Below, piece after piece: positions 1,393-44,138 of a stretch of 64,000 bases of DNA (the first letter of the stretch is position 1; each line of letters opens with the position of its first letter). The stretch spans positions 1,116,001 to 1,180,000 of the forward strand of contig JBCAMK010000005.1 of assembly GCA_038503065.1 (NCBI GenBank), given 5' to 3'. A program made the position numbers and the translations under genes. The notes under the pieces were generated by a model. That model made no database searches and was not told the DNA's origin. It saw only the letters and a list, made by a program, of their open reading frames with translations. This stretch comes from Paragyromitra xinjiangensis (taxonomy: Eukaryota; Ascomycota; Pezizomycetes; Pezizales; Discinaceae).

Positions 1393-1791
1393 TGTGGGCG
1401 AGTGCGTAGGAGACTCTGCCAGTTTGACGCAGAGATCTGATATTCGCTGCCTTCGCGCTGTGAAGAAGAGACTGCGTCGACGCGGACTTCGATGTCCTAT
1501 AGCGAGGCACATATATGCGGATTATTAGGCGTGGAATCGAGCGAATAGGAAGGATATATTCGATACGAATTAGGCAAGGCAAAAGCCCGCCGCAAAGGAA
1601 TACGATACAACAATAGATAGATAGGTAGATAGATAGGAAAGAATTGAGTAGTGAATAGGAATAGAATCGACAGGAAATGTTGAACAGTAATAGAAATCCT
1701 CCGCTGTCAATACCCCTAACCCTTATACACGTGACTGCACAAGACGTGACTTATCCATCGCTTCCTTCCACCTCCCGCGCGCCCCACCACA
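1393..1791 (-). repeat. Element E 3' LTR
   Basis: This is the left-hand copy of the LTR and the 3' LTR with respect to the minus-strand element. It starts TGTGGGCGAG and ends CCCCACCACA in plus-strand reading. It matches 12152-12547 almost base for base. The only difference I can see lies between two CGTGAC motifs, where this copy is 3 nt longer. It contains the GCGTCGACGC palindrome at 1474-1483 and a short GATA-type repeat (about 1611-1640). Confidence 0.95.
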
Positions 1792-1958: not shown

Positions 1959-4900
1959 CTACCAATTCATCCGCTTCCTCCGTCGCTTCTTCTTCCCTTC
2001 CGACGCCGTAGAAAGCTTCCGCTTAGCAGGAGACTGCGTCGACGCGGAGTCTTCTGCCAAAACGCGAGTTTCCGGAGGAGGCATTTCCTCATTAGCAGCA
2101 GCAGGCGGGGCAACGTCAGCAGCAGACGAATCCTTAACAGCAACAGCAGCTGCGGCGGCGACATCAACAGGCGGATCCTCCAATTCCTTCTCCGAGTCCT
2201 CCAATTCGGGCTCTATTTCCTTTTCCACCTCTAATTCCTCCCTAATAGGAGATACCACTTCCTCTTCCGACTCCACCTCCACTTCCGACTCCACCTCCAC
2301 TTCCGATTCCACATCCGAACCAAATCCTGCCAGCGAATAACCTCCACGCAGCAACGAATCCTTGCCTTCCTTGGTAATTCGCATGGGAGGTTCCCAAGTG
2401 CCCGTATCTCTGGCGTGGAAATAGGAATCCGGACCGAAATCTCGCCTCTCCGCCCACTCCTGGACCTTATACCCCTCCCTCATAGCCTCCATCAACTTCC
2501 TCCGCACTTTTCTCACCAATTTCCACGCCTTCCGCTCATCTGCCCCCAGCAAGATCTCCAACTCCCAACGCACACGAGCCGATTCCCAATCCACCAATCC
2601 CAACAGCGCATCTCCGATCCCCCACACACCTCGGACCTCTGGCGTACTCGCAAAACGTGCTTTAGGGCGGCTATGGGCGTTAATTTGCCCAGTAGGATTC
2701 CGTGGCAGCACGGTCAGCGAGCGGTGCGCTTCAGCGATGTCGGCACGTGAGCCCATTTCCAGGAATTCCATGGCTTCTCCGTCTCCCTGGATGGCTGTGG
2801 GCCAATTATTCACCGTTCTCCGCTGCAGAATTGCCTTATCTTTGGCGCCGGCAGTTGCTCCGTGAATTAGGTGCGGCAACGAGATTCGAAGGTCTCCAGG
2901 TGCGCAAACCACGTTCGTTTCCTTGCCAAATGACGCCTCATCCTCCTGCAAATACGTCTTAGTGGTCCGGAAAGAATTCCCATCCTTGGCATCTCCGCGC
3001 GCCTCCACACGAGCCCACCAATCCGCGAGGTGATTCTGGAAGCCTTCAACGACCGCGGTACAACCTTCTGGGATTTCCTGATCCAGCGAAAGCGAGGTTT
3101 GGATGTGATTCACTCCCACGCCCGTATCTAGAGCCTTCCGAGGATTCAGATCTATATGGCGGAATTGCGTATAATCTCCAGGCAGCGAAAACTTAGCGTA
3201 GTGAGGAAAGGCCAGCATACGATAGGCGCGGTCCGACCTCGCAGCCAGTACCAGGACGTAATATACGGGATCCTGCCTAATTGCCTGCTGTAGTACAGAA
3301 TGATAGCAATTCCGCAACCAGCCCGTTGAATCACTCCGTTGATGGTGGAGATATAGGTCGAATTCCTCCGAGATCTTAGCCCAAAGCTCCGTTTCCTCCG
3401 TCAACCACCTAAACGCCGGAACCACGCAATTGCCTTTCTCCAGAAACGCATCCCAAGCCTCCTGACTGCCAAAGCGCGCAAAGATTTCCCCTCTATCAAA
3501 CTGCGGAAGTTCCCACGGAATTGGCTTCCACAGCAAAGACCCCAAATCGTCCGCCTCCACTTTAGCCCTCGCTCCTTTCCTAAACCAACCATAAGTCGCT
3601 GCCGCAGCGTGAAGATTCCCTATTGAATCCCAGTGCCTGTGGATGTGCTGCAGGCGCAGCGTCATCTCCGCGCGGTTCAGGCGCTTGACATACAGGCCAA
3701 CATACGATGCCAGCCGCTGTAAGTGCTCCCAGCACAGATTATCAAGCCCTGCCTCCACGCCATCCAACAGATATTTCCCCTGCGAGGCAAGCGGTACCAC
3801 TTCTGCGCTTCGATATTTGCGCAGATTAGATACCCACGCCTTGGAGAGATATTCTCCACAACCACATGCTTCGGACTTATGGATATCCTCTTCCTCTTCC
3901 TCTTCCAATTCCACACCTTTCTGCACCTCTTCCGCTTCTTCTTCCGCCACTTCCTTCCCCTTTCCTTTTTCCAATTGGCGCTGCGTTTGCGCCTCCACAG
4001 CCTTACCAACCACCTCATCCTCCTCCGGCACCAAGCGAGGAGTCTGCGTCGACGCGGAGTCCTGATCTTCCGCCCCACTCTCCACTTCCTCCACTACTCT
4101 CTCCAGCGACTTCCCCTTCTTAGCAGCCTTTGGCTTAATCTGCTTCGGCCTAACTTCCACAGGCCACGCCAACACCAAATCCTCATCCCGAACCTCCTCT
4201 TTCGTTTCCTTCCCCTCTCCTGCCTTCGTTAACCATTCCTTGGCATATGCCACATCTTTAGGCATGAATACCAAGGCTTTCTGTTGGCCAGAGGTTCGAT
4301 CCTGCAGGCGCATTCGATAGCCTGCATCCAGCGCCTTCCAGGCTTGGCTCATTGACCACCCATCTCGAGCAATTGCCGCTAATTGACGTAGGAAATGCTC
4401 TGAGAATTGGCGCAGGCGGTACTCTTGTGGATCGAACTCCTCCTCCCATTGGTCGCCCCACTTCTCACAAATCAACTTCCTCGCCCTTTCCTTCCTGCCA
4501 TCTGTGGCTCTATAACGCTCTTGCGCCGGCGCAATCACGTTATCATAGTCCATCATAGCCCTAAACGCCGCTTCTCCACCAAACTGATCCCATAGCCCCT
4601 CTTTCTCCACATAATCGGCCCAAATCCGCGAGATTCCCTCATCTGATACCTCCCGCGCCTCTGCAAACACCTCCAGGGCATCCTTAGCAACGGCGGGTCG
4701 AGATACCGGATCTTTGTGCGCTGCCATGGTCTTCTCGATTAGACTGCGCAGGCCATGTTTGGCGCGCTGCTGCAATACGCTTTCTCTCGTGATTTCGACG
4801 ATTTCGTTGGTGCCCGTATGGCCTGAGGTTTTCGGCGCTCTGTGTACCATTTTCTTGACCGTACTTGGCGACAGCGACTCTGACTTGCTGCTTCTCGTTT

Positions 4901-5186
4901 TTCTGCCTTCTGGAGTGCTGGGGCCAGCCGGCTCATTTATGGGAGTAAACATGGCACGCTGCTGTTTCATGATGACGTAGTAGAACAAAGAAGTGGTGCC
5001 CAACTTGAAAGCGCTGATATATATGCGTCGAGGGCCAGCTTGATAGCGAGGGTCAACTTGATATCGAGGGATCCAACTGGCAGCGAAGGCTTTCGACGAG
5101 ATCCTTCCTTTAGGCGAGAGATGTAAGGGATTAGTCCTAGGAAGCAGGTTTGCTTCCCCCTCCCCTCCTAATAAAGAAGAGGTCAT
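1959..5186 (-). CDS. Element E third ORF, 1075 aa, dioxygenase-like core (2OG-Fe(II)?)
   Basis: This ORF sits downstream of pol, where env or accessory ORFs occur. The start is ATG 5186; Met73 (4970) is an alternative. Acidic Glu-rich and Lys-rich stretches occur around residues 360-450 and at the C terminus (repeated EVEVES), which ends in a basic tail. The conserved-looking middle holds QFRHIDLNP (His677, Asp679), then SLSLDQE with GCTAVVEGFQNH, then GDLRISLPHLIHGA (His772/His775) and RRTVNNWP (Arg789/790). The order HxD, distal His, Arg resembles the metal- and 2-oxoglutarate-binding set of the double-stranded beta-helix dioxygenases. I see no signal peptide or membrane anchor, so an envelope is unlikely. 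Two GCGTCGACGC palindromes lie inside it, both encoding a DSASTQ motif. The enzyme class is inferred from motif order only. The frame is intact, so it is probably under selection. Confidence 0.6.
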   Translation of the reverse strand: MTSSLLGGEGEANLLPRTNPLHLSPKGRISSKAFAASWIPRYQVDPRYQAGPRRIYISAFKLGTTSLFYYVIMKQQRAMFTPINEPAGPSTPEGRKTRSSKSESLSPSTVKKMVHRAPKTSGHTGTNEIVEITRESVLQQRAKHGLRSLIEKTMAAHKDPVSRPAVAKDALEVFAEAREVSDEGISRIWADYVEKEGLWDQFGGEAAFRAMMDYDNVIAPAQERYRATDGRKERARKLICEKWGDQWEEEFDPQEYRLRQFSEHFLRQLAAIARDGWSMSQAWKALDAGYRMRLQDRTSGQQKALVFMPKDVAYAKEWLTKAGEGKETKEEVRDEDLVLAWPVEVRPKQIKPKAAKKGKSLERVVEEVESGAEDQDSASTQTPRLVPEEDEVVGKAVEAQTQRQLEKGKGKEVAEEEAEEVQKGVELEEEEEEDIHKSEACGCGEYLSKAWVSNLRKYRSAEVVPLASQGKYLLDGVEAGLDNLCWEHLQRLASYVGLYVKRLNRAEMTLRLQHIHRHWDSIGNLHAAAATYGWFRKGARAKVEADDLGSLLWKPIPWELPQFDRGEIFARFGSQEAWDAFLEKGNCVVPAFRWLTEETELWAKISEEFDLYLHHQRSDSTGWLRNCYHSVLQQAIRQDPVYYVLVLAARSDRAYRMLAFPHYAKFSLPGDYTQFRHIDLNPRKALDTGVGVNHIQTSLSLDQEIPEGCTAVVEGFQNHLADWWARVEARGDAKDGNSFRTTKTYLQEDEASFGKETNVVCAPGDLRISLPHLIHGATAGAKDKAILQRRTVNNWPTAIQGDGEAMEFLEMGSRADIAEAHRSLTVLPRNPTGQINAHSRPKARFASTPEVRGVWGIGDALLGLVDWESARVRWELEILLGADERKAWKLVRKVRRKLMEAMREGYKVQEWAERRDFGPDSYFHARDTGTWEPPMRITKEGKDSLLRGGYSLAGFGSDVESEVEVESEVEVESEEEVVSPIREELEVEKEIEPELEDSEKELEDPPVDVAAAAAVAVKDSSAADVAPPAAANEEMPPPETRVLAEDSASTQSPAKRKLSTASEGKKKRRRKRMNW

Positions 5187-5645
5187 GGCGTTTCTGATAC
5201 CTCTGCGTCATAGCCCTAAGCCCTATTCCGCCGGCGATTCCCGCAGAGCCCCAACCTTAATTCAACTTCGACCACCGCCAAACATAGGAAAATACACTAA
5301 ATCCGCCAAATACAGGTACAAAAATAGGAAAAATACAGCTAATAGAAACATAGAACTCCGAAGGAATTAAACAGGAATTGACTGAGGAATATACGAAGGA
5401 ATAGACGACTAGATAATACGAAGGAAATACAGGCAAATAGAGACGAATCAACTGACGAATTGACGAGGAGTATACAAAAGAAACGACGAATAGTAGATAA
5501 AGGAATACATGAAGGAAATATATGAAAGAAACGACGAGCTGACGAGGAATAGACGAAGGAATATAGCAAGAAACGAAGAAACAGCGAATAAGAATCCAAA
5601 GAAACGGTACAAAAGAAACTCGTAAGGGCCCCCCCTTTAGTGGTA
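5187..5645 (-). other. Pol to third-ORF spacer of element E
   Basis: This is 459 bp without a convincing gene. The part next to pol (about 5290-5640) is rich in purine repeats such as AGGAATAGACGAAGGAA on the plus strand. The part next to the third ORF contains the 5' leader. Such a long gap means the third ORF is unlikely to be read by reinitiation from pol. A spliced or internally initiated RNA is more plausible, though I found no decisive splice pair. Confidence 0.4.
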
Positions 5646-8600
5646 TTAAGGCAACTGCACGTAGAAGCCCCAGTCTTTCTTAGGCTTGACACGCTTACCA
5701 TCAACCACAGAAACATCTTCCTCCATTTCCACATCTTCCTCAACTTCCGCCTCTATCTCCGCCTCCTCCTGCGGTTCCCGCGTCGACGCGGACACTTCCG
5801 CGTCCTCCTCTCCTAACTCTTCAGCGGATTCCTCTGCGAGATCTTCTGCGAGATCCTCTGCGATTCCTTCTGCGATTTCCCCTGCGCGTTGAAAGAAGCG
5901 TTTAACACGATCTGGAGGCGTAGTGCCGCCTAAAAGCGTGCCATCGAGCTCCTCCAAAACCACGGTGCCTACAGGAGATATTTCCCGAATTCGAAAGGGT
6001 CCACGCCATCTATTCGCCAGCTTATCACTCCACTGCTTTTCTAGCTTCGTATTGTGGAGAAGCACGAGATCTCCAACGCTCAAGGTCTGCGAGTTAGGCC
6101 GTTTTCTCCTATGGGAGTCGAAATACCGCTTATTCTCCGACCTGCTTTCTCTCAGCCGAATTGCTGCTTCCTCAATATCCTCGTCTCGCATCTCCAATTG
6201 CCTGGCCCGAGCTGCCAATAAATCCGCCCTAGAGTGGATATCCTGCCACTCAATACTGCCCCACGAGCTCATAGTTATCTCCACTGGAAGCACACACTGC
6301 CACCCAAAAACGAGCTCAAAAGGCGCCTTTCCTGTGGACCTTCTAACCGTAATTCGATCCGCCCAAAGCACAGAGTGAAGATGATTAGGCCAATCTTTCG
6401 GCTGTTTGGAGATCTTCTGCAAAGCATCCACTATTTGCTGATGCCCACGCTCGACCAGCCCATTTGCCTGCGGATGATATGCAGAAACGACCTTTCTATT
6501 GATATTATACCGATTGCACAGGCGCTCCGTAAATGCCTTATTCTCTGGCCCTCCATCCACCACAATCTTCCTAGGGCATCCGAATCGTGAAATCACCTCC
6601 TGGAATAGGAAATCCGCCACTTTCTCCGAGCTCCCTCTAGTCAAAGCACGTCCTTCCGCCCAGCCTGAGAAATCATCTCTAGCGAGGACTAGATACCGAT
6701 TTCGATCACTTCCAGCAGGCATATGCACTATATCTACACAGACCTTCTCGAATAGCGAAGTGCCAAATGTGGGATGTAATTCGTCAGGATATCTGGCCGA
6801 GGCTCGAAGTTGGCATTGCTCGCAGGTCCGAACGAATTCCTCCACATCTTTGGCTAGTCCACGCCACCAAAAGCGTTGAGAAATCTTCTTAAACGTGCCT
6901 TCTCTGCCTCTATGCCCTGATTCGTCGTGGAGATCCTTCAGGATTTGCTGCTTTTCTGGTCCATGGCATATCACTCGCTTCGGCGGCTGATTCTCACGAC
7001 CTCTCCGGAATAGGTGCCCGTCTCGAATTAGGAATTTGGTTGCTTCTCGCCTAAACGCCTTTCGCTGCTTCTCCGAGAGATCTTCCGGCATAGTAAGAGA
7101 TTCCAGGAATTCACCAATCTGCTGCCAACGCCCACTATACTCTCCTTTGGCTAAGCATACAAAAGGATTAACAGGACCTCGCGTCGACGCGGACTCTCCT
7201 GCGGTTACCCGGCTGGCGAATAGTTGATCATCGAGGAATTCCTCTAATTCCTCCACATCTTCCGCCTCTGCTTCCGCCACATCCTCTTCAGTCCCCTTAC
7301 GCCTCGATAATCCATCTGCTGCAGTATGCTGCTTTCCTGGGACGTGGACCACGTCGAAATCGAAGAGACGAATCCACGCAATCCAACGAGTGACCATTGC
7401 GCCTGGAAGATCATTAGCAGGGAGATTCAATTGGTGAACCAGCGTTCGAGCGTCGATTTCCACACGGAATCTAACTCCATAGAGCCAAAAGCGCATCTTC
7501 TTCAGCGCCTTGAGCAGTCCTTTGCACTCTTTCTTCCCCGCGTCATACTGCCTCTCTGCAGGCGCCCACAACCCGCTCTCATACCTGCAAGGATGCCTTA
7601 TATCTCCTAATAATTGCATTAAAACGGCACCCCAACCTTCTCCTCCGGCATCCACCCCTAAAATCAGCAGGCCTGCCAACGGACCATATTGTGGCGTAGC
7701 CAGCGCTGGCGCAGTAGTAAGTGCCTTTTTGATCGTTTCCATTGCTTCCTCCTGCTCTTCCGCCCATACGAAAACCACACCTTTTCGCTGCAGGAAGAAT
7801 AACGGCGCTGCGATAATTGCAAATCCTTCGATCCAAATTCTATAATAGGTGGCAACTCCTAGAAAGGCTCGGACTTCCGTAACTGAATCGCAGGCAGGCC
7901 AAAGTACGATCTTTTCCACTTTCTTTGCATCAGGAAATCGCCCTTCTTCCGTACAAACGAATCCCACGATCTTGATTCCAGGCTTGCACCAAGAAGACTT
8001 AATTCCCGCCACTGTGGCACCTGCCCTTTCGTAATCTGCTAGGACTCGGTCCAAATTGACGATATGCTCTTGTACGAATCTTCGAATTCCAGGGCTTATT
8101 TCCTCATCATCATACCGCGAAGTTGGCCCTTTTACGCCCACGTCATCTAGAAAGACTCTGCAGCGCTCCGGGATATTATCATGCTGCGCTTTGGAGTTGA
8201 TTCGCTGAAATGCCTGTACTGAATTCGTGCCTCCCTGCACCATCCTGGTGTAGCGAAGTAAGCCTAAAGGGGTCTGAATAGCGGTCATATCTCTGCTTTC
8301 TTCTGCTAAATCCACCTGATCATAGCCGGAGAATAGATCAATAATCGAGGCTATTGCCATTCCAGCGAATTCTTCGCTGAATTCGTCAACCCTAGGAGGC
8401 AATGCCGCATCTAGTATCGTATGGCTGTTGGCTTTAGTGAAAGAGGCGACTAATCGATGCCCGCCCTGCTTTTTCTTTACTAGAAACCAAGGATTTCGAT
8501 ACGGCCCGCGGCAGCGCTCTAGAGTGCCTCCTGCCATCCGCGCCTTTAGAATTTCAATAACCTCCCCTTCCAGGGCTCTGGGTGTCTTGAAGGGAGCTTC

Positions 8601-9191
8601 CTGCCAGGGCACGTGTGGAATCGTCCGAATTACGTGTGGAGGCTCAACTTCCGACTTGAATAAGCCAATTTCTGTGAATTCGAATGCCACAGCAGCCTCC
8701 CTATTGTATAGCATTTCCATCAAAAGCTCTCGTTCCTTTGGCTGAAGATGCCCTATATCCATTTCCGCTATTCTTTCTTTCGTGAGACGAGATCCTCGTG
8801 GAACACTGCTGAATTTGGGCGTAAGGATATGATCAAAAGGGCCAACGGGCTTATCCAGCCCTCGCCTCTTTTCTTCCTTCAGGCAATCCTGCTTCCAATT
8901 CGGATTTCCTTCTGCAGCGCCGCCATCACCTTTGACGTTCTGCGGGCGCACTTTCTCCTTCTTATTCTTATACAGCCTCCTGCTGCTTACTCCACTTCCT
9001 GCTCGCTGAATTTCATTCCAAACTGCCATACACCGCCGCACCCGCACCTCTCTTTCCGCACCTCGCAAGACTCCGCGTCGACGCGGAGTCTCCTGCGCTC
9101 TTCCGACCACACCCCCCACTTCTTCCACCACTTCCGCCATTCTTCCGACCACTTCCTCCGGAGGTTTCCGCCGCCTCTTCTCAGTAAGCAC
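5646..9191 (-). CDS. Element E Pol: RT, RNase H, integrase
   Basis: This is the Ty3/Gypsy-type polyprotein, 1181 codons from 9191, but the frame is open upstream to the frameshift site, so translation as Gag-Pol is likely. The RT active site is FLDD (residues 347-350). RNase H starts with VDAGGEGWG (Asp514). The integrase has an HHCC finger (His755 to CEQC at 790-793) and a catalytic triad Asp820, Asp879, Glu914, giving the expected D-35-E spacing. A GPY/F-like NRWRGPFRI follows and there is no chromodomain. The last 100 residues are Glu-rich. Palindrome-encoded SAST(R) motifs lie between RNase H and integrase and near the C terminus. It should act in the virus-like particle and, for integrase, the nucleus. 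Confidence 0.93.
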   Translation of the reverse strand: MLTEKRRRKPPEEVVGRMAEVVEEVGGVVGRAQETPRRRGVLRGAEREVRVRRCMAVWNEIQRAGSGVSSRRLYKNKKEKVRPQNVKGDGGAAEGNPNWKQDCLKEEKRRGLDKPVGPFDHILTPKFSSVPRGSRLTKERIAEMDIGHLQPKERELLMEMLYNREAAVAFEFTEIGLFKSEVEPPHVIRTIPHVPWQEAPFKTPRALEGEVIEILKARMAGGTLERCRGPYRNPWFLVKKKQGGHRLVASFTKANSHTILDAALPPRVDEFSEEFAGMAIASIIDLFSGYDQVDLAEESRDMTAIQTPLGLLRYTRMVQGGTNSVQAFQRINSKAQHDNIPERCRVFLDDVGVKGPTSRYDDEEISPGIRRFVQEHIVNLDRVLADYERAGATVAGIKSSWCKPGIKIVGFVCTEEGRFPDAKKVEKIVLWPACDSVTEVRAFLGVATYYRIWIEGFAIIAAPLFFLQRKGVVFVWAEEQEEAMETIKKALTTAPALATPQYGPLAGLLILGVDAGGEGWGAVLMQLLGDIRHPCRYESGLWAPAERQYDAGKKECKGLLKALKKMRFWLYGVRFRVEIDARTLVHQLNLPANDLPGAMVTRWIAWIRLFDFDVVHVPGKQHTAADGLSRRKGTEEDVAEAEAEDVEELEEFLDDQLFASRVTAGESASTRGPVNPFVCLAKGEYSGRWQQIGEFLESLTMPEDLSEKQRKAFRREATKFLIRDGHLFRRGRENQPPKRVICHGPEKQQILKDLHDESGHRGREGTFKKISQRFWWRGLAKDVEEFVRTCEQCQLRASARYPDELHPTFGTSLFEKVCVDIVHMPAGSDRNRYLVLARDDFSGWAEGRALTRGSSEKVADFLFQEVISRFGCPRKIVVDGGPENKAFTERLCNRYNINRKVVSAYHPQANGLVERGHQQIVDALQKISKQPKDWPNHLHSVLWADRITVRRSTGKAPFELVFGWQCVLPVEITMSSWGSIEWQDIHSRADLLAARARQLEMRDEDIEEAAIRLRESRSENKRYFDSHRRKRPNSQTLSVGDLVLLHNTKLEKQWSDKLANRWRGPFRIREISPVGTVVLEELDGTLLGGTTPPDRVKRFFQRAGEIAEGIAEDLAEDLAEESAEELGEEDAEVSASTREPQEEAEIEAEVEEDVEMEEDVSVVDGKRVKPKKDWGFYVQLP

Positions 9192-9221
9192 CTCCGCGCT
9201 TACTGAGATCTCCCGTTTCCC
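9180..9221 (-). promoter_or_regulatory. -1 ribosomal frameshift signal between Gag-PR and Pol
   Basis: On the minus strand the Gag frame reads TCG GGA AAC, so G GGA AAC (9215-9221) is a canonical X XXY YYZ slippery heptamer. After a 7-nt spacer comes a perfect 10-bp inverted repeat, CTCAGTAAGC and GCTTACTGAG, with an 8-nt loop (9180-9207). The Gag stop TAA (9200-9202) lies in the stem. Pol is open in exactly the -1 frame. All elements of a retroviral-type frameshift cassette are visible; whether it works is inference. Confidence 0.85.
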
Positions 9222-11599
9222 GAGCTCTGCTCACGCCTCCTCCGCATCCACTGCCCCTTTGCTTCCCTTACTGAAGTGCGCGCATACCCTTCAGGCGGAA
9301 CAGCCATGAATTTGGCTTTCTTTAGGCGATCAGAGGACCAAATCGTGCCCCACATTGAGCCGTCGTCCTTATTCGTCCACTTTAGTAAGGCAGCGCGTTC
9401 GAATGGGCGCCCTAATACGAATTCGCCTTCCATTCCTGGAGATGCGAATATTGGCGTATAAACCACGGCACCTCCCACACTAACGGGCGCTTCGTGAATA
9501 CAGCAGGTCAGAGGTGTGGAATCTCCAGTAATTCCAGTCATGGTCCAATCCACCTGGTCGTCGTATGGCAAATTCAAGCTCTCGAATTCCGACCAACCCA
9601 TTCGATTGATTTCTGATCCATTATCCCCCGTTGGCTGCAGCAAAACGCCGTTAATACTAATGGGAATTAATCCTGACTCAGCAGCGTATTCGACTTGATG
9701 TCTAATTCTCCGAGCCTGGGAGTCGCGTGGAGATGCCTGCGCTTTAGAGACCTTCGCAGCTGGCGGCACGCCTCTGCCGTATAAATATTTCTTGAAGGGA
9801 GGAGAAATAGAGACTAATTCCGAAATGCTGATATTGATCGACTTTTCCGTTGCTAATCTGTGGAAAAGCTCTTCTTCGGAGGGGGCGCCTATGGCATCAT
9901 CTCTAAGGGCTCTGCGTGGTGCGACGACCTTCTTTTCAGGCTTATTCGTGGGCTTATTCGTAGGCTTATCTTCCTGCATCTCCACTTCCACAGTCTCTAC
10001 TGGAGGATATGCTCTAGGCCTGGGCGCCCGAGCATTTGGCAACCCTTCCTGCCTCTCAATTCTCTTCCTGAGATCTTCCACCTTTTCCTTCTTTGATGGC
10101 GCCCTGCGCTTTTCCACACGCGCCGGTTTGACTGCAGAAACATACCAATTCGCCTCTTCTTCCTCTGATTCCGAATCCGAACCCAATTCCGATTCCAATT
10201 CTTCCTCCACTACCTCTTCCTCGCTGCTTTCTTCGTCTAATTCCCCTAAACGCGCCATTCTGACCTCGAAGCTCGGACCGCGGCTAGGACTGGGCGCAGC
10301 TTTGATTCGCCTTACGCCTGGCTGTTGCGACGGCTGCGGAGGTTGCTGCTCTCTGGCCTCCACTTGCTGCAGCATATTTCTTCCCGTACTTCTCTCCCAC
10401 GGCTCTACCACATCTCCTCCGGAGCCTTCACCTCCCCAGTGAATTCTCCCTCCTACAGCCCTATGCACTAATCCTGCGCGCTCTTTAGCCATCAAAGCAG
10501 GGCATTGATTCTTCAAATGCGTGGGATCTGCACAAAAGATGCAACGCCTTGCCGGAGTATACTGAAGATTTTGAGCGTACTGCTGAGCTGGCTGCGGATT
10601 CCGGAGCGGAATTGCATTTGCTCCCGAAGCAGGACCTGGCGTGTTGTAGGCTTGCGGCGGAGGCGCTCTGGCGCCGACGTTGGCTCTGCTAAAACTCTCC
10701 ATAAATTGCGCCTGTTGGCGTAAAACCATGGCTTCCATGCGCTTCGAAATGTCGTCAATTGCGCTTGTGACGTCAATACTATGGCTTTGGCGTTGAGCTG
10801 GCTGCGTAGTCTGCGCAATCTGCGCTGACTGCACCGGCTGCGACCCTCCGAAACTGGCTGATACTGAAGGCTTCGGCTTCGTTTCCTGCGCTAAAAGCTG
10901 GTCAATAAGCACCTCGGAAGAAAACTCACCCTTCTTCATCAATTCCTCCGTGCGAAGCGTGCCTAAGCAATAATCCTGAGCCTCTTTCCTAATCAAGGCA
11001 TATTTGCCTTGAAAGGAGCTGGGCACGTTGACATCCAATTTGAATTTGATAATCAGCTTCCTGGCAAGATCTAATTGCAGCCCTCCTAGAAACAGCTGAA
11101 TCTCCTGATATTCCGAAAGCATGCCTGTGGTCTTAAGACTAGTGGAAACTGCCGTAAACGTGCGCACAAAGGGGCGTATATCGCCTGTTTTCTTCTTCTG
11201 CGCGGCAGTCAGCTCTTCCAGGAATCTTACCGTATACATCTGCTGTTTCGTATCCTGCGCTCTATATTCCTCCAGAATCTCCTTCCGCAACACTTGCCAG
11301 TCTCCATCCACATATCCCTGCAAATATCGAATCGTGGCACCAATAGAGCTGACGCAATAGAGAGGGAGTTTCTTCACAGCCGCCTTCTCCGACTCTCCGA
11401 ATTCTTCGTATAGAAGCTCATAATGCTCTAGGAAATCCGTGGCATCGTTTCCGTCGAAGTGCGGGGCACCGTGGGTTCCTGGAAAGGGCATATGCGTCAA
11501 TTGCTTCCGAAGACCTTCGATAAGCAAATCTGCAGAGGCAGTGGTAATTGGCGTGCCTGCCGTTGGCGTGGAGTTGACTGTGGACCGTGGAGTCGACAT
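9200..11599 (-). CDS. Element E Gag-protease polyprotein
   Basis: About 799 aa are encoded from ATG 11599. The frame is open further up to 12271, inside the LTR, but this Met begins the Gag-like part (HFDGNDATDFLEHYELLYEE, a retrotransposon-gag capsid signature). A CCHC zinc knuckle runs from Cys353 to Cys366. Acidic stretches follow. The C terminus is retropepsin-like: an active-site loop GDNGSEINRM (Asp659) and FVLGRPF. The usual D-S/T-G is D-N-G here, which is unusual. The ORF ends at TAA 9200 just after a slippery heptamer, so most ribosomes should stop and a minority make Gag-Pol. Confidence 0.9.
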   Translation of the reverse strand: MSTPRSTVNSTPTAGTPITTASADLLIEGLRKQLTHMPFPGTHGAPHFDGNDATDFLEHYELLYEEFGESEKAAVKKLPLYCVSSIGATIRYLQGYVDGDWQVLRKEILEEYRAQDTKQQMYTVRFLEELTAAQKKKTGDIRPFVRTFTAVSTSLKTTGMLSEYQEIQLFLGGLQLDLARKLIIKFKLDVNVPSSFQGKYALIRKEAQDYCLGTLRTEELMKKGEFSSEVLIDQLLAQETKPKPSVSASFGGSQPVQSAQIAQTTQPAQRQSHSIDVTSAIDDISKRMEAMVLRQQAQFMESFSRANVGARAPPPQAYNTPGPASGANAIPLRNPQPAQQYAQNLQYTPARRCIFCADPTHLKNQCPALMAKERAGLVHRAVGGRIHWGGEGSGGDVVEPWERSTGRNMLQQVEAREQQPPQPSQQPGVRRIKAAPSPSRGPSFEVRMARLGELDEESSEEEVVEEELESELGSDSESEEEEANWYVSAVKPARVEKRRAPSKKEKVEDLRKRIERQEGLPNARAPRPRAYPPVETVEVEMQEDKPTNKPTNKPEKKVVAPRRALRDDAIGAPSEEELFHRLATEKSINISISELVSISPPFKKYLYGRGVPPAAKVSKAQASPRDSQARRIRHQVEYAAESGLIPISINGVLLQPTGDNGSEINRMGWSEFESLNLPYDDQVDWTMTGITGDSTPLTCCIHEAPVSVGGAVVYTPIFASPGMEGEFVLGRPFERAALLKWTNKDDGSMWGTIWSSDRLKKAKFMAVPPEGYARTSVREAKGQWMRRRREQSSGNGRSQ

Positions 11600-12151
11600 G
11601 CTTATTGCGATTGATAGGGCGAATACGGTGAATACTGTGAATGCTGCGAATTCTGCTGTGAATCGTACGAAGTCTGAATCTTTCTTCTTGCCTTTCCGCG
11701 GGGCATTGGGGGGGTATACGTCTCCCGTGGCGTCTGCTGCCTTCTTGCGGATTCGGCAGCTGAATCTCCGAGATCCCGTATTAATTGTACAGCCTAGCCC
11801 TTCCTCAGAAGACTTCCCTGCCACAAATTTTTTCTTGCGCAGTCCCTCGCTCTTAGCAAGTCGACCTCTGCCGCAATAGGCACAGTCTAATCCGCTGTGG
11901 AATTTCTCTGCCGCCTCAAATGCTCTATATCCCGTAACTTCGCAGCCTATTCCGCACAGGGAATTCTCTGCCGAAGAAAACTCTTCTAGCGTCCTATAGC
12001 GTCTCCACAGTCTATTCCGCCGTGGGAATTCTCTGCCGAAGAGCTTCTCCAAATCCCGTGCCTTCCGTATGTGCGTGCGATTCGCTACGTGACTGCTTTT
12101 CTTCGTGCTTAGGAAGCCTAGCGTATCAATCTCTCTGGTCGAAGGGACCAT
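11600..12151 (-). other. Element E 5' leader with repeated GGCAGAGAATTCC units
   Basis: This is the region between the 5' LTR and the likely gag start. Three imperfect units resembling GGCAGAGAATTCCC followed by a CGGAATAGRCTG-like block occur at about 11994-12045, 11932-11980 and 11870-11920. The Gag frame stays open through it (Met41 overlaps the PBS), so it may be an N-terminal extension or a structured packaging leader. A run of GTGAATACTGTGAAT-type repeats lies just upstream of ATG 11599. Confidence 0.5.
12133..12150 (-). other. Element E primer-binding site
   Basis: One base inside the 5' LTR, the minus strand reads TGGTCCCTTCGACCAGAG. The TGG start is expected for pairing with the CCA end of a tRNA. 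I cannot name the tRNA from this alone. Confidence 0.65.
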
Positions 12152-12547
12152 TGTGGGCGAGTGCGTAGGAGACTCTGCCAGTTTGACGCAGAGATCTGAT
12201 ATTCGCTGCCTTCGCGCTGTGAAGAAGAGACTGCGTCGACGCGGACTTCGATGTCCTATAGCGAGGCACATATATGCGGATTATTAGGCGTGGAATCGAG
12301 CGAATAGGAAGGATATATTCGATACGAATTAGGCAAGGCAAAAGCCCGCCGCAAAGGAATACGATACAACAATAGATAGATAGGTAGATAGATAGGAAAG
12401 AATTGAGTAGTGAATAGGAATAGAATCGACAGGAAATGTTGAACAGTAATAGAAATCCTCCGCTGTCAATACCCCTAACCCTTATACACGTGACCGCGCA
12501 CGTGACTTATCCATCGCTTCCTTCCACCTCCCGCGCGCCCCACCACA
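12152..12547 (-). repeat. Element E 5' LTR
   Basis: This is the right-hand LTR, 5' with respect to the minus-strand element. It is the twin of 1393-1791. It carries the GCGTCGACGC palindrome at 12233-12242. The end CACCACA at 12547 is followed by the GCGT target duplication. Confidence 0.95.
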
Positions 12548-13087: not shown

Positions 13088-15067
13088 CATCAGCAAAAAT
13101 TGATAAAGCCGCCCCGGCCGCCTGGAGGTCTAGGCGGTCGGGCGGAATGTTACTCTTCTGTTAGGTTGCTGCAGCACCTCGGCGCGCCCGGGAGGCATGG
13201 GTTCTAGGCCTTTGACCACCTGGAGGAGGTCATTTCCTCCTGTAGCAAGTGGTGTAGTGGGCCGCTTCTGGGCGTGGGTGGTCCCTCGCTGCCGCAGAAT
13301 TTTGGCAGCAGTTCGCCCTGTAGAATGGATTTGCACAGTATGCTTGTATAGGGCCCGGAATATTCGGGAATCACTTGTACGGAACCAATATCATTGACAA
13401 TTGCTTTATTCTAGGTATCTATCAATATATCTATGTACAAATATTGAGGTCGCAGGTAAACTAGCTTCTATGGAAGCTGCAGCAGCGAGTCGACGACCTG
13501 CCAGAGGCAGGAGGCGAATTGACCTATTGGCGCAGGCGCAGGCGCAGGCTCAGGCGCAGGCTCAGGCTCAAGCAGCGAATTGACCATATGGTGCAGGCAG
13601 CGGAAGCTCAGGCAGCGAATCGACCTATTGGCGCAGGCGCAGGAAGCTCAGGCTGCGAATTGACCATATGGCGGAAGCGGAGGAAGCGGCGGAAGCTGGA
13701 GCAGCGAATAGACCATATGGCGGAGGCAGCGGAAGCTCAGGCAGCGAATCGATCAATTGACTGAGGCAGCGGAAGCTCAGGCAGCGAATTGACCTATTGG
13801 CGCAGGCAGCGGAAGCTCAGGAAGCTCATCGACCATGTGGCGGAGGCGCAGGCTGAGGCTCAGGCTCAGGCTCAGGCAGCAAATCGACCATATGGCGGAG
13901 GCTGCGGAGGCTGCTGCAGCGAATCAATCAATTGACTGAGGCGGCGGAAGCTCAGGCAGCGAATTGACCTATTGGCGCAGGCAGCGGAGGCGGCTGCAGC
14001 AAATTGACCATGTGGCGCAGGCAGCGGAAGCTCAGGAAGCGAATCGACTATATGGCGGAGGCGGAGGAAACTCAGGCAGCAGAAGCTCAGGCAGCGAATC
14101 GACCATATGGCGGAGGCAGCGGAGGCAGCTGCAGCGAATCGATCAATTGACTGAGGCAGCGAAAGCTCAGGCAGCGAATCGACCATGTGGCGGAGGCGGA
14201 GGAAGCTCAGGCAGCAGATCGACGACCTCCAGGAGGCGGCGGAAGCTCAGGCAGCGAATCGACCTATTGGCGCAGGCTCAGGCTCAGGCTCAGGCAGCGG
14301 ATCGACCATATGGCGGAGGCTGCGGAGGCTGCTGCAGCAAATCAATCAATTGACTGAGGCAGCGGAAGCTCAGGCAGCGGATCGATCAGCCAATTGAGCC
14401 GCCTCCTGAGCTCACTTAGGCGGAAGCAGTGAAGCAGGCAGCCAGTGGAGGCAGAGGAAGCTGAAGCAGCGGATCAAAGCGAGTCTAGGAGGCAGATCAG
14501 CGGGAGTCAAATAAACGGAATCAAGACGTTACCTAGGAGGTTCTTTGCAAGCAGAGCTTAGTACTTCGGGCCTAAAAGTCACGATGTCAACAAAGTACTC
14601 TGGTACAGCGAGGTGGGGAATGGGTGGGAGTGAATAGGGGGAGGAGAGACGGGAAGGAATAGGGGGAGGTGGAGATTGCTGTCTTACTAGGCCTTGCTTT
14701 GGCGACGACTTGGCGACGACCTGGTGACGACTTGGCGACGACAAAGTGATGACTAAGCGACCTCCAGATTTTTTGAAAATCAATAAGTGCCAGGGAGGCG
14801 AGTGAAGTGAATTCTGCTAAGTCCCGAGTTCTCAGGGACTTTGAAAAATTCGATCGAAAAATGCTTAGTACTCAAGCTGCCACCCAGCGCTGCCGGATGG
14901 TAGGAGGTCGCCTGGAAGCGCTGCCGGATGGTAGGAGGTCGCCTGGAAGCGCTGCTGGCAGCAAGCGGCGCCTGGGGAAAGCGCAGTGGGCAGCTAGTGT
15001 CGCCTGGGCGCAGCAGGCGGTCGGGCAGAATATGTACCTATTGGGCGCAATTTCTTTTTTGCTGATG
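13088..15067. mobile_element. TIR-A: non-autonomous terminal-inverted-repeat transposon
   Basis: A 1980-bp element interrupts the Gypsy A RT frame. The left end is CATCAGCAAAAA and the right end is its inverse complement, ending TTTTTTGCTGATG. The flanking dinucleotide AA is duplicated (13086-13087 and 15068-15069), and removing element plus one AA restores RT. No transposase is present. Internally there is a long tandem array (13518-14400) and, near the right end, GGCGACGACTT and GTGATGACTAAG-type subterminal repeats (about 14700-14760). The terminus equals that of the Plavaka-type element at 54671, the probable source of transposase. Confidence 0.88.
13518..14400. repeat. Tandem array of GAAGCTCAGGCAGCGAAT-type units in TIR-A
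   Basis: The array is an imperfect tandem repeat built from GCAGCGGAAGCTCAGGCAGCGAATCG-like and ACCATATGGCGGAGGC-like modules, about 30-45 bp each. A short GCGCAGGCTCAG run starts at about 13529. The same modules occur in TIR-B at 18030-18080 and 22445-22900. Several frames are open by composition only; I do not call a gene. Confidence 0.8.
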
Positions 15068-21195: not shown

Positions 21196-22032
21196 TAAGC
21201 CTCCGAATTGACTGTTGAATAGGCTCCGAATTGACTGCTGAATAGACTCCAAATCCCGCTGAATTGACTGCTGAATTGACTGCTCAATAGACTCCGAATC
21301 AACACCTGAATAGGCTCCGAATTGGCTGTTTCTAAGCCTCTGAATCCCGCTGAATTGACTGTTGAATTGACTGCTGAATAGACTCCGAATAGACTCCGAA
21401 TCGGCTGTTTCTAAGCCTCCGAACCCTGCTGAATGGACTCCGAATTGGCCGTTTCTAAGCCACTGAATCCTACTGAATTGACTGCTGAATAGACTCCGAA
21501 TCGACACCCGAACCACTGCTGAATAGACTGCCGAATAGACTCCGAATAGACTGTGGAATAGGCTCCTGAATAGACTCCGAATTGACTCCCGAATGGACTC
21601 CGAATCCTGCCGAATTGACTGCCGAATAGGCTGCTGAATAGACTCCTGAATAGACTCCGAATTGACTGCTGAATTGACTGCTGAATAGACTCCGAATCGA
21701 CACCGAATCGGCTGTTTCTAAGCCTCCGAATCCCGCTGAATTGACTGCTCAATAGACTCCGAATCGACTCCCGAATGGGCTCCGAATTGACTGCTGAATA
21801 GGCTCCTGAATAGGCTCCGAATTGACTGCTGAATTGACTGCTGAATAGGCTCCCGAATAGACTCTGAATCCTGCTGAATTGACTGCCGAATTGACTCTGA
21901 ATCGGCCGTTTCTAAGCCTCCAAATCCTGCCAAATTGACTGCTGAATAGACTGCTGAATAGACTCCAAATCGACTGTGTGCCAGCGCCTGAAACAACTGC
22001 TGAATAGCAGACCAAACAATTGATTTAGGCAC
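21196..22032. repeat. Tandem array of GACTGCTGAATAGACTCCGA units in TIR-C
   Basis: The array has 21-27 bp units built from TGAATAGACTCCGAAT and GACTGCTGAATTGACT, mixed with GGCTGTTTCTAAGCCTCCGAA units. The same array in reverse orientation is at 48120-48900 in TIR-D. Long open frames on both strands follow from the stop-free unit and are not called as genes. Confidence 0.8.
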
Positions 22033-23549
22033 AGGTGGGTTTAGTGCGGGGGGGGGGGTTGCCTCTAGTGGCGACTACTTGATTTTGTACATAGAGATCC
22101 TGTAGTGTAGCTTTTCAATATATGTAGCCAAATTGATACCAATAATCATGTGCATTTGCGTGCCCCCAGTAGTATTATTGGCGCCCTACAGCCACCCTAC
22201 AACTGACCTACAAGCGATGGTGTGGTCCACGGGAATTGATAGAGCTCCAGGAAGGTCCGCCATCTATGGTAGGTTGTCCAAGGAGGTCCACGAGGGTCCG
22301 TGAGAAGTGGTGTGTGGTCCGGGAACCGTGTGCAAGGGTCCTTGGGATATGGCTGTTCCATGGACTGGCACTTGCCTCCATCTGGTCCGCGCCATCCATG
22401 AGGGTCCAGGAGCGCCCAGGAGCCAAGAATCGGTTTTGCTGATGCATATTGCGCAGGCAGCGGAAGCTCAGGCAGTGAATCAACCTATTGGCGCAGGCGC
22501 AGGAAGCTCAGGCAGCGAATTGACCATGTGGCGGAAGCGGCGGAAGCTGCAGCAGCGAATAGACCATATGGCGGAGGCGGCGGAAGCTCAGGCAGCAGAT
22601 CGACCATGTGGCGGAGGCAGTGAATCGACCTATTGGCGCAGGCTCAGGCTCAGGCTCAGGCAGCGAATTGACCATATGGCACAGCCGCAGGCAGCGCAGG
22701 CAGCGAATCGACCTATTGGCGCAGGCGCAGGAAGCTCAGGCAGCGAATCGATCAATTGACTGAGGCAGCGGAAGCTCAGGCAGCGGAAGCTCAGGAAGCG
22801 AATCGACCATATGGCGGAGGTGGAGGAAGCTTTGGCAGCAGATCGGCGACCTCCAGGAGGCGGCGGAAGCTCAGACAGCGGATCGATCAGCCAATTGAGC
22901 CGCCTCCTGAGCTCGCTTAGGCGGAAGCAGCGAGGCAGGCAGCCAGTGGAGGCGGAGGAAGCTGAAGCAGTGGATCAAAGCGAGTCTAGGAGACATATCA
23001 GCGAGAGTCAAATAAACAGAATCAAGACGTTACCTAGGAGGTTCTTTGCAAGCTGAGCTTAGTACTTCGGGCCTAAAAGTCACGATGTCAGCAAAGTACT
23101 ACGGTACAGCGAGGTGGGGAATGGAGGGAATAGGGGCAGGTATGGGAGGAGAGACGGGAAGGAATAGGGGGAGGTGGAGATTGCTGTCTTACTAGGAGTT
23201 GCTTTGGCGACGACTTGGCGATGACAAAGTGATGACTAAGTGATGACTAAGTGACCACAGAGTGATGACTAAGCGACCTCCAGATTTTTGAAAATTGCTA
23301 AGTGCCTAGGAGGCAAGTGAATTTTGCTAAGTCCCAGGCTTTTAGAGACTTAGAAAAAATTCGATCGAAAATTTACTCAGTGCTCAAGCTGCCACCCAGT
23401 GCTGTCGGATGGTGGGAGGTCGCCCGGGAAGCACTACAGGTACCAAGCGGCACCAGCGGGAAGCACAGCCTGCAGCTAGTTTCGCCTGGGCATGGCAGGC
23501 GGTTGGGCAGAATATGTACCTATTGGGCGCAATTTTTTTTTTACTAATG

Positions 23550-31803: not shown

Positions 31804-32922
31804 AATGCTGTCAGGGAGTGGCCGGTACCTAGAACTGTGAAGGATGTGCAGGCCTTCTTAGGCTTCGCCAACTTCTACAGGAGATTCATAGCAGGTTTCA
31901 GTCGGGTTTGCAAGCCCTTGACGGATCTGCTGATGAAAGACAAGAAGTGGTTCTGGACTGCCGCTTGTGACAGAGCTTTCAAGGAACTCAAGCAGCTGTT
32001 CACAAGTGAACCAGTCCTAGTTCATTTTCACCCCAGTAGGCGCACAGTTGTAGAAACTGATGCAAGTGACTTTGCGAAAGGTGCAGTGTTATCTCAGTAT
32101 GGCGAGGATGGGAAGCTACACCCTGTGGCCTTCTACTCCAAGAAGTTTTCCCCCGCCGAGATAAACTATGACATCCATGACAAGGAAATGGGCGCCATAG
32201 TGGCTGCTTTCCGAGAATGGGAGCACCTTTTGAAGTCAGTAGAGGGAGAAGTCACTGTGTTCACCGACCATAAGAACCTCGAGTACTTCAACAGTACCAA
32301 GGTCTTAACCCGCCGGCAGGCCAGATGGTCTGAAGACCTGGCGGGTTATAACTTTAAGGTGGTCTACAGATCCGGTGACAAGAATGGGAAGCCAGATGTC
32401 CTATCCAGACGGTGGGATCACTGCCTAGGAGAGGGAGGTGAACCTGCAGTTGCAGAACCGCAGTTGTTTTTCCGTGCTGGGCAATTGGTGTTGAACCCTG
32501 CTAGGCTAGCGGCCATCAGAGTTCACCAACTCCAGTCTACATTCTTGCAGAGGCTTGAAGCTGCGGCAGCTCAAGATATCCAGTGGCAAGGCATCTGCCA
32601 GGCACTACAGGAGAAGAAAGAAGGATTAGACCCGTCACTGTCCCTCAAGGATGGTTTAGTGTTCTATAAGAACCGATGGTATGTCCCGGAAGGCAGAGAC
32701 CTCCACCAGGAAATCTTCACTGAGTGTCATGATAGCAAGATGGCCGGTCACTTCGGGCAGTTCAAGACAGTTGAGAAAATCAAGTCCAACTTCCACTGGC
32801 CCAACATGGATAAGGACATTGAAGAGTATGTCCGGAGCTGTGATAGCTGCCAGAGGAACAAAACCGCCCACCACAAGAAGTACGGCGAGTTATTACCTCT
32901 GGAGGTGCCCTACCGACCTTGG
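31804..32922 (+). pseudogene. Gypsy B pol, second part: RT thumb, RNase H, integrase finger
   Basis: It resumes after LINE2 with VKDVQAFLGFANFYRRFI, then RNase H (ETDASDFAKGAVLSQ, HDKEMGAIVAAFREWEH, DVLSRRWDH) and the integrase HHCC region ending CDSCQRNKTAHHKK. The frame passes PYRPW and then enters LINE1 copy 1, giving a short chimeric tail to 33006. The DDE core is missing. There is no stop in this block, unlike Gypsy A. Confidence 0.9.
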
Positions 32923-33239
32923 ACCTCATCCTGCACGAGCAAAAAGATCCCTGCAAAACTCCAATTCTACGTTGCAACGGCGTTACACACTGCAAAAAGT
33001 CTTTAACTCTTCGGCTTCATTTCTCACCACTTCCCCGCACTCACACCTCTTCATCGGGCGCTCTGCCCCTATACATCCTGGATCCGCCCCAGGCTCCTCC
33101 CAGGAGATCCCGCACACCCTCTCCATCTCCTGTGAAGCTGGTGACCTTTGGCACCAACTTCACCCTCCCCCTCATCGGCAAGAAAAGAACCCTCTCGAAC
33201 CCTTCCCCAGCACCTGCTCGCTCAGGATCTCCCACTAAG

Positions 33240-34658
33240 ATGGCACAACCTGGACCCTCTACCGCGCAGTCCCTCTTTGACACTGGCCCTCAGGGCCTTT
33301 CCACAGACTCACAATACATCGATGAAGCTCTAATGCAGGAGCTCCCTGATGATTCCACCCCCAATTGGCTCCGTGAATTTTCAATCACGGAAGACTACAT
33401 GCCGGAAATCCCTGATGAAGGCAACACCGAGCAATACACAGCCTGGCTACTAAAATCCAGTTTCGCTCGCCTCAACACGCAAACTGAGGAAAACAACACC
33501 CATCTCCTCGCCAAAGTAGCCATGCAGGAGAATGACATCGTCAGGCTCACGGATCAAACAAAGATCCTTCAAGAAATGGTCGGAAAGCTATCCACCACCC
33601 TCAACAACATGGCCAGATCACTTCAAACCATCGACAAAAACACCACTCAACCTGCCCGCACCCCTGCACCTGCCAGCAATCAACAGCAAAAGCCGCCCCA
33701 AACAGCCCAGAAACCTCAGACTCCACTGCTAAACAATGGCAAACCTATGACATACGCACAAGCAGCCAATGCCCCCGCAGACCCTTTCACTGAAGTCAAT
33801 AAGGGCAACAAGAAGAAGAAGGCTCTCCCTCCCAAGCTCTTCCAACCCCAATTCACGGCAATCAACCGCCAAATCATCCTCGAAACCTCTGGTGACCTCC
33901 CCCCAGCTCTCACCAACAACTCCCTCCTCGCTGCCATCAATAAGGAGCTCGCCCCGCGCAACATATCAATCCTCATCTGCACCAAAACTGCAAGACACAA
34001 TTTTGTACTCACCACTCGCCCTGACGAATCCGCTGAACAAATCTGCTCGGCATACAATAAGGAAATCGAAACAGCCTGCAACTTACTCCACATCCCCCTC
34101 TCCGAAGCTCGACCCAACTCCAAATGGTCCAAGTTCATCATCCATGGCATCCCCACCAAGAACACCATGGCGGAAGTAGCGGAGCAAATGGCCATTTCAG
34201 TCACAACTTTCACCCTTGCCCAAACTCCCAGATGGCTCACTACACCGGAGGCAAGAACCAATAAAACCCACTCAGCCATCGTCATCGCCCTTCCTCAAAA
34301 ATTCACCATGGAGACCCTGGGTCTTCACCAAATTCCCCTCTTCAATTCATTTTGCTGCATTCAAGAATACATCGCCGTTTCCCCCACCACCCAATGCCAA
34401 AAGTGCCAAGAATTCGGCCACCACCAACAAACTTGCAAGAAGGACTTCAAATGCGCGATCTGCGCAGAGGCCCATGAAACCATCAAACACCCCTGCACCT
34501 CAGCGGGATGCCCGGCTGGAATTAAATGCATCCACCCACCCATCCGCTGTGCGAACTGCAATCAAGGCCACAAAGCCTACGAACGCAAAGTCTGCATTGC
34601 ATACACCAAGCTCACAGAGAGCCTCAAATCCTCCCGAATTAACACTACCACCGCTTAA
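33240..34658 (+). CDS. LINE1 copy 1 ORF1 protein
   Basis: 472 aa from ATG 33240 (MAQPGPSTAQS). The same frame is open and conserved for about 105 codons upstream without an ATG. It has a helical middle part (ENDIVRLTDQTKILQEMV), a Lys-rich KGNKKKKALPPKLF, then three CCHC-like knuckles (CQKCQEFGHHQQTC, CAICAEAHETIKHPC, CANCNQGHKAYERKVC). The role is RNA binding in the retrotransposition RNP. The stop TAA overlaps the ORF2 ATG as TAATG. Confidence 0.9.
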   Translation: MAQPGPSTAQSLFDTGPQGLSTDSQYIDEALMQELPDDSTPNWLREFSITEDYMPEIPDEGNTEQYTAWLLKSSFARLNTQTEENNTHLLAKVAMQENDIVRLTDQTKILQEMVGKLSTTLNNMARSLQTIDKNTTQPARTPAPASNQQQKPPQTAQKPQTPLLNNGKPMTYAQAANAPADPFTEVNKGNKKKKALPPKLFQPQFTAINRQIILETSGDLPPALTNNSLLAAINKELAPRNISILICTKTARHNFVLTTRPDESAEQICSAYNKEIETACNLLHIPLSEARPNSKWSKFIIHGIPTKNTMAEVAEQMAISVTTFTLAQTPRWLTTPEARTNKTHSAIVIALPQKFTMETLGLHQIPLFNSFCCIQEYIAVSPTTQCQKCQEFGHHQQTCKKDFKCAICAEAHETIKHPCTSAGCPAGIKCIHPPIRCANCNQGHKAYERKVCIAYTKLTESLKSSRINTTTA

Positions 34659-38392: not shown

Positions 38393-38660
38393 TCATAAGG
38401 CAATCCGGGCGGGGGAAATTTTTCTTTTGTATCCGGATGGTTTAAGTTCAGTTATAAAATTTTCCTTAAGAATGATTTAGTTGGTTCGGTTATGTTGTTA
38501 CGTTTTGTATTTCTTTTATTTTTTTATTTTTATGTTATATTTACGGGGATGTTGAGGTTGGCGGTGGTTGAGACCATGTATTTCATATACGCGTGTCATT
38601 CAGTAGCTAGTTAGGTTAGCGACTGTCTAAAATTAAATGAAATTGGAAATTGGAAATTGG
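38393..38660 (+). other. LINE1 3' UTR and (GAAATTG)3 tail (type copy)
   Basis: This is the AT-rich 3' UTR after ORF2, containing GCAATCCGGGCGGGGGAA, TTATAAAATTTTCCTTAAG and GTGTCATTCAGTAGCTAGTT. It ends in three exact GAAATTG units plus G (38639-38660). Copies 2 and 3 end identically at 44398 and 52071. The conserved 3' part is probably the RT recognition region; the heptamer tail replaces a poly(A). Confidence 0.8.
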
Positions 38661-38977
38661 ACCTCATCCTGCACGAGCAAAAAGATCCCTGCAAAACTCC
38701 AATTCTACGTTGCAACGGCGTTACACACCGCAAAAAGTCTTTAACTCTTCGGCTTCATTTCTCACCACTTCCCCACTCCCGCACCCTTTCATCGGGCGCT
38801 CTGCCCCAAATCATCCTGGATCCGCCCCAAACTCCTCCCAGGAGATCCCGCACACCATCCCCATCTCCTGTGAAGCTGGTGACCTTCGGCACCAACTTCA
38901 CCCTCCCCCTCATTGGCAAGAAAAGAACCCTCTCAAACCCTTCCCCAGCTCCCGCTCGCTCAGGTTCACCCACCAAG

Positions 38978-43400: not shown

Positions 43401-44138
43401 GGGACACCATTGTGAAAACGAGGACGCGGAAATACATGGCATTCAAGAAGCCTTATATTTCTTAATTCACAACTTGCCTGCGGATAATTCCACCATATAT
43501 CTTTGCGTTGACAACCAGAACGCACTCCTATCCCTTTCGGGCAACAGCACCTCCAACCGCCAGTACCTAAAAGATACACTGGCACATATATCTACACTAA
43601 ATAACCTCAATTCAGAAGTCTTTGGCCGATGGACTCCATCCCACACAAATATTCCTGGCAACGAAATCGCCGACCAGATGGCCAAACAAGGCCTCTTCCT
43701 TCAACCATGCAAGCACACTTGCTCCACACTGGGTTGGCTTCGTCTCCAACCCAAGCTTAACCTCCTCAAGCTATGGCAACTCACAACTGAAACCCCTGTT
43801 GCTCTCCACCCCCCTCCAGTTGTGCGATTTCTTCGCCGAAACCAAGCGAAAGCGATATCCACCCTCCGCACTCAACAAACTAAGGTGGATCCAAATCCCT
43901 TCAACCCTCCCACCACATGTCAATGTGGAGCCATAATTCTTCTCCACACTTAGCTCTCGCCTGCCCATTCAATCGCACCACCCGACCAGACTGGGGCCAC
44001 GATTGGTACTCAGCCATCCTGCTCAACAATAACCACATTGACCTCCTGCACTTTATCCGCGAAAACAATTTGGCTACGATTTCAACAAACAAATATCTTT
44101 ATCGCGCATCGAATACGAACTTGCTAAATATAAATTGA
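40405..44138 (+). pseudogene. LINE1 copy 2 ORF2, late one-base frameshift
   Basis: Endonuclease, RT (YIDDD) and RNase H are all intact through about 43930. One base is missing near 43935 compared with copy 1, inside the C-terminal Cys cluster, so the frame ends at 43953 after CQCGAI. The remaining 60 or so residues continue in another frame to 44138. Since the catalytic domains are complete, the truncated protein might keep part of its activity. Confidence 0.9.

Follow-up and report, generated by a model that had tools for sequence, protein, structure and literature searches.

Organisation of the element and its third gene

The window analysed here is a stretch of 64,000 nucleotides from the genome of Paragyromitra xinjiangensis (contig JBCAMK010000005.1, positions 1,116,001 to 1,180,000 of the forward strand). 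On its minus strand lies a long terminal repeat (LTR) retrotransposon of the Ty3 type, about 11-kb in length, which carries gag, pol and, between pol and the 3' LTR, a third gene designated here open reading frame 3 (ORF3; coordinates in Table 1). This third gene belongs to the element, its protein is kept as strictly as the end of pol, and it very probably encodes an Fe(II)/2-oxoglutarate oxygenase of the PhyH type. The Pfam matches along pol are reverse transcriptase, RNase H and integrase, in the order of Ty3 elements, and a Pfam scan of the gag frame gave no match. The preliminary description of this DNA had placed a 1075-codon open frame downstream of pol in a retrotransposon, with an HxD motif, SLSLDQE, GCTAVVEGF, a distal histidine and an arginine following one another; the frame and all of these motifs are present in that order, although the first 72 codons are likely to lie outside the protein.

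The ORF3 protein was searched against the genome (48.2 Mb, 22 contigs) and gave 66 matching stretches, including eight near-complete places with 92-100% identity. In all eight the end of pol lies upstream and the 3' LTR downstream while the flanks differ, and therefore ORF3 moves with the element. No gene of the ORF3 family outside the element was found in the same genome with two distant homologues as queries, the best candidates all falling, by eye, at known ORF3 places. The element is recently mobile; 18 distinct insertion flanks were found across the loci examined, and at the window copy, the only one for which both flanks were compared for a target-site duplication, the LTR pair is flanked by ACG on both sides, which is not a clear duplication.

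A preference for CpG at the target site was also observed. Directly after the LTR end CCCACA, NCG (CG at +2,+3) was read in 17 of the 18 distinct flanks (positions 1390-1392 at the window copy), compared with 4.3% for CG over the whole window. The exceptional flank reads GTG and belongs to copy L031, in which CpG decay is also strongest.

Coding constraint and start of ORF3

The ratio of nonsynonymous to synonymous differences (pN/pS) was pooled over the 28 pairs formed by the eight genomic copies, with stop and gap codons excluded. It amounts to 0.13 for ORF3, a value below 1, as the preliminary description had proposed to check, and the final 260 codons of pol give the same value in these copies. 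Along ORF3 the ratio is 0.12 for residues 73-430, 0.08 for residues 431-559, 0.08 for the oxygenase region (residues 560-930, bootstrap 0.056-0.116) and 0.24 for residues 931-1075. ORF3 is not a chance reading frame, since the two shifted frames of the same eight copies give 1.71 and 1.67 and since homologues retain the catalytic positions.

The beginning of the frame is different. Codons 1-72 have a pN/pS of 0.67, gaps are present in 99 of the 120 alignment columns that make up codons 1-40, and the internal stops of copies L006, L007 and L008 are all at codons 26 and 38. From codon 73 onward the frame is uninterrupted by stops in seven of the eight copies, the exception being L004 with a stop at codon 884, and none of the eight variable columns in codons 73-90 is at a second position. 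As codons 1-72 behave as non-coding DNA, the true start is probably Met73 (window position 4970) or Met80. The spacer between pol and ORF3 carries no coding constraint either (pN/pS of 0.81-1.34 over the three frames, four copies) and is a possible promoter or splice region.

The probable oxygenase core

The core of ORF3 contains, in order, FRHIDLN (His677 and Asp679), SLSLDQE, GCTAVVEGF, GDLRISLPHLIHGA (His775) and QRRTVNNW (Arg789). In enzymes of this class the arginine after the distal histidine has a role in binding 2-oxoglutarate. Three protein searches gave at least 20 homologues among the matches listed, and the hosts named for them are Maublancomyces gigas, Peziza echinospora, Kalaharituber pfeilii, Choiromyces venosus, Coleophoma crateriformis and two Geoglossum species, all ascomycete fungi. 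In the family tree the window protein pairs with homologue P0001 (100/99) and forms with it and P0002 to P0005 a group of six (100/98). The homologues that keep the catalytic positions are 31-46% identical to ORF3 residues 430-935. Over the 21 rows of the family alignment, counting only rows with letters at the position, HxD is kept in 19 of 20, the distal histidine in 20 of 21 and the arginine in all 21. Homologue P0009 starts with MDKEWGFLV, similar to the end of the window pol (KKDWGFYVQLP), the only hint that homologues in other fungi may also sit in retrotransposons. Two scans of viral contigs for relatives of ORF3 gave none that was confirmed, and one of 21 members matched a nameless PHROGs family (expectation value, E, of 0.003).

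A Pfam scan of 19 of the 20 homologues (P0020 was left out) matched P0015 to PhyH (PF05721) with 40.2 bits, above the cut-off of 22, and an E of 5.9e-10. PhyH was reached at E 0.16 or better by nine of the 19, eight of them sub-threshold. The matched stretch takes in the distal histidine in all nine, HxD in three (P0007, P0015 and P0018) and the arginine in three (P0007, P0012 and P0015). In addition, the 21-row family core was compared by hhalign with a PhyH alignment of 26 rows (25 prokaryote loci and one fungal fragment of the same genome). The probability was 91.5%, with a single-template E of 8.7e-7, and the 65 aligned columns run from the CT..GF motif to the arginine; the controls with a reversed PhyH alignment or a reversed family profile gave 0.20% and 0.15%, respectively. 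In a forced full-length alignment three parts coincide: HID with HQD of PhyH, CT..GF with NGC..PGSH, and the distal histidine with its PhyH counterpart. The PhyH matches of homologues, the profile comparison with its reversed controls, the conservation of HxD...H...R and the purifying selection together support the assignment to the Fe(II)/2-oxoglutarate oxygenases, for which the fold would be that of PhyH.

The preliminary description had offered TET/JBP, AlkB and phytanoyl-type folds for this core and had made the idea depend on relatives keeping HxD and the distal histidine, as nearly all of them do. Its enzyme class is supported and the phytanoyl type fits. Neither ORF3 nor the 19 scanned homologues matched Tet_JBP (PF12851), nor did they match any AlkB-type Pfam model, the latter at the Pfam level only and with no profile-profile comparison made. 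Searches of known structures by sequence gave no convincing match for family members. P0015 aligned with PHYHD1 (2opw) in the register seen with PhyH, the match being non-significant (E of 2.1) and ranking below a dynein chain; PrhA, a fungal dioxygenase, was met at E 0.85 behind unrelated chains.

The core is preceded in ORF3 by a long N-terminal region and followed by a conserved C-terminal one. A CxC...CxxH arrangement is, judging from its residues, a possible metal-binding module, and no recognised Pfam domain covers it in the window protein. A SAP-like reading of residues 483-525, around and after the CxxH pair, was rejected as no SAP model was matched in 11 members at E 10; the only Pfam matches there were to two unrelated families, in one member each. 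The basic C-terminal tail may act as a nuclear localisation signal.

Proposed role and alternatives

In the most probable scenario the element expresses ORF3, possibly through a separate start in the pyrimidine-rich spacer, and the protein would enter the nucleus by its basic tail. Iron would be bound there by His677, Asp679 and His775 and 2-oxoglutarate by Arg789, and the protein would hydroxylate or demethylate its substrate. If this substrate is a modification placed by the host on the DNA, RNA or chromatin of the element, its oxidation would relieve silencing. For the explanation as a whole, namely that the third gene of a recently mobile Ty3-type element encodes a competent PhyH-type oxygenase relieving silencing in the nucleus, we see about an even chance, and the counter-silencing role by itself is plausible at somewhat less than even. 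A bolder version, in which the PhyH-type oxygenase would be a dedicated eraser of silencing marks in an element that also inserts at CpG, integration and removal being aimed at the same dinucleotide, is a long shot. The data demonstrate that ORF3 is part of the element, is under selection, has the catalytic residues and resembles PhyH in sequence; its fold, activity, nuclear location, substrate and role are inferred.

Several observations weigh against this explanation. The window protein itself has no Pfam match at E 1 and no NCBIfam match, and for 18 of the 19 scanned homologues PhyH is below cut-off or not matched. The significant hhalign segment is limited to its 65 columns, HxD being in register only in forced full-length or global alignments. 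P0001 lacks HxD (it reads QIN), P0016 has Tyr at the distal histidine position and genomic copy L008 has Trp instead of Arg789. A simple scan for clusters of basic residues did not recover the basic tail in the homologues. On the side of the host, 16 copies show no enrichment of C-to-T changes at CpA, so that no pattern of the repeat-induced point mutation kind is seen, and the CpG transitions over all 16 copies are in modest excess (249 of the C-to-T type vs 190 of the reverse). Moreover the well-studied PhyH enzymes act on small molecules. PHYHD1 and its relatives remove the methyl group from free 2'-O-methyl nucleosides but do not act on RNA (PMC12709175).

The last two points lead to what is in our opinion an unlikely, yet the most serious, alternative, that ORF3 acts on a small molecule or on free modified nucleosides and aids the supply of nucleotides or metabolites without any anti-silencing function. 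The profile similarity is indeed to PhyH, and the structure matches of P0015, two in number and both weak, include PHYHD1. However, the similarity to PHYHD1 itself is weak (E of 2.1), and the size of ORF3 greatly exceeds that of PhyH enzymes; its conserved N-terminal region, CxC...CxxH and basic tail rather suggest a macromolecular or nuclear role. The protein might otherwise hydroxylate or demethylate the Gag, Pol or RNA of the element itself, for instance in particle assembly or the synthesis of complementary DNA, with no part in countering host defence. A constraint equal to that of the pol tail and a location between pol and the 3' LTR would agree with this, whereas the life cycle of most Ty3 elements runs without a gene of this kind, and we consider it improbable.

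The exceptional residues of P0001, P0016 and L008 would be explained if ORF3 kept the fold and acted as a binding protein and not as an enzyme. With the catalytic residues kept in nearly all rows, and with exceptions that may be decaying copies, this is very unlikely. A TET/JBP oxygenase of DNA 5-methylcytosine is scarcely credible. Tet_JBP matches do occur in the same genome, and transposons of fungi, Helitrons of the Pezizales included, carry TET/JBP genes (PMC12730594). Against it, ORF3 and its scanned homologues lack the Tet_JBP match, the eight Tet_JBP places of the genome differ from the ORF3 copies, and hhalign of the family with seven TET/JBP sequences of the same genome gave 0.08%; this last figure is weak evidence, the shallow set giving only 2.6% with PhyH, which is of the same superfamily.

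Possible silencing setting in the host

In favour of a setting for silencing, the genome has matches to DNA methyltransferases, and the frames inspected look to us, by their motifs, like the RID/Masc1 and DIM-2 types. The CpG observed/expected ratio in ORF3 is 0.93. Transitions at CpG of the C-to-T type outnumber the reverse in copies L031 (32 vs 7), L008 (28 vs 12) and L004 (24 vs 11). Since the CpA pattern is absent and only some copies show a clear excess at CpG, silencing of the element family by cytosine methylation is not established. DNA methylation in relation to transposons in a truffle is the topic of PMC4165359.

The two differences between the LTRs of the window copy (1736-1739 and 12495-12498) are both of the CpG to TpG/CpA type, the sense strand reading TGCGCG in one and TGTGCA in the other, as from deamination of methylated cytosine. 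The eight Tet_JBP matches of the genome (L009-L016), two of them over the cut-off, include near-identical sets (L011/L012 and L013/L014/L015); because of these near-identical copies the genes appear to be multicopy and perhaps transposon-borne.

Other features of the window

Table 1. Features of the Ty3-type element and of ORF3 (window positions)
Feature	Position	Strand	Remarks
3' LTR	1393..1741	-	349 bases
ORF3	1959..5186	-	1075-codon open frame; selected part from about codon 73
Basic C-terminal tail, KRKLSTASEGKKKRRRKRMNW	1962..2024	-	resembles a bipartite nuclear localisation signal
PhyH-like Fe(II)/2-oxoglutarate oxygenase core (predicted), residues 600-815	2742..3389	-	
Arg789, candidate 2-oxoglutarate ligand	2820..2822	-	7/8 genomic copies
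Distal His775	2862..2864	-	8/8 genomic copies
CTAVVEGFQNH, residues 709-719	3030..3062	-	in register with the PhyH NGC..xPGSH motif
HxD iron ligands (predicted), His677-Ile-Asp679	3150..3158	-	8/8 genomic copies
CxC...CxxH module, residues 441-488	3723..3866	-	all four residues in 13/15 rows with letters
Met80, alternative start	4947..4949	-	
Met73, likely start codon	4968..4970	-	coding constraint begins about here
Spacer between pol and ORF3	5187..5645	-	459 bases; sense strand 64% pyrimidine
pol	5646..9191	-	reverse transcriptase, RNase H, integrase
gag frame	9200..12271	-	gag by position; listed ATG inside the LTR, true start further in
5' LTR	12152..12500	-	349 bases; 2 differences from the 3' LTR

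Adjoining the element, positions 426-1346 of the minus strand hold pieces that by eye resemble another Ty3-type pol (RNase H and integrase-like). Three similar two-frame units, like those of non-LTR elements, are placed head to tail at 32919-47873, with second frames of 1244, 1182 and 579 amino acids, and a strong negative GC skew at 32-48 kb takes them in. A frame of 719 amino acids at 55220-57379 encodes what is presumably a DNA-transposon protein of the Plavaka/KDZ kind. Degenerate tandem arrays were found at 13566-14385 and 22451-22785 with a 40-base period and at 21201-21976 with short periods (12, 23, 35 and others).

Comparison with known systems

Enzymes of epigenetic or epitranscriptomic marks are seldom carried by mobile elements, and where they are, they indicate what host defence does to the element. 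Retrotransposons with cytosine methyltransferases likewise bring such an enzyme, although these write a mark whereas ORF3 would remove or change one. In the literature searched, by title and start of abstract and with most subscription papers and preprints outside its scope, no PhyH-like enzyme was found in a retrotransposon.

A close parallel is in orchids (Phalaenopsis), where Ty3/Gypsy elements have a frame with an AlkB domain and demonstrated N6-methyladenosine (m6A) demethylase activity (PMC9289625). As with ORF3, a Ty3-type LTR retrotransposon carries there an additional Fe(II)/2-oxoglutarate oxygenase frame that keeps HxD...H and the arginine. However, in the orchid elements, which belong to the Tat family and measure 25 kb, the domain groups within the ALKBH5 homologues of plants, whereas ORF3 is PhyH-like, lies in an 11-kb element and is under every Pfam cut-off. 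PMC12730594 describes TET/JBP genes, that is, 2-oxoglutarate oxygenase genes on mobile elements of fungi, Pezizales included, like ORF3. Their carriers are DNA transposons and Helitrons, and according to that paper no retrotransposon with TET/JBP was found, whereas ORF3 is in a retrotransposon and has no TET/JBP profile match.

A constrained PhyH-type enzyme would thus add a third oxygenase branch besides AlkB in orchid retrotransposons and TET/JBP in fungal DNA transposons. If the proposed role is true, ORF3 would point to a modification, or a PhyH substrate, that is new in the silencing of fungal transposons, and this candidate can be tested. With PhyH (PF05721) and PHYHD1 it shares HxD, a GC..PGSH-like motif, G...H and the arginine in the same order and register, and it differs from PF05721 in its long N-terminal region, CxC...CxxH and conserved C-terminal region, most members of the family being under the PhyH cut-off.

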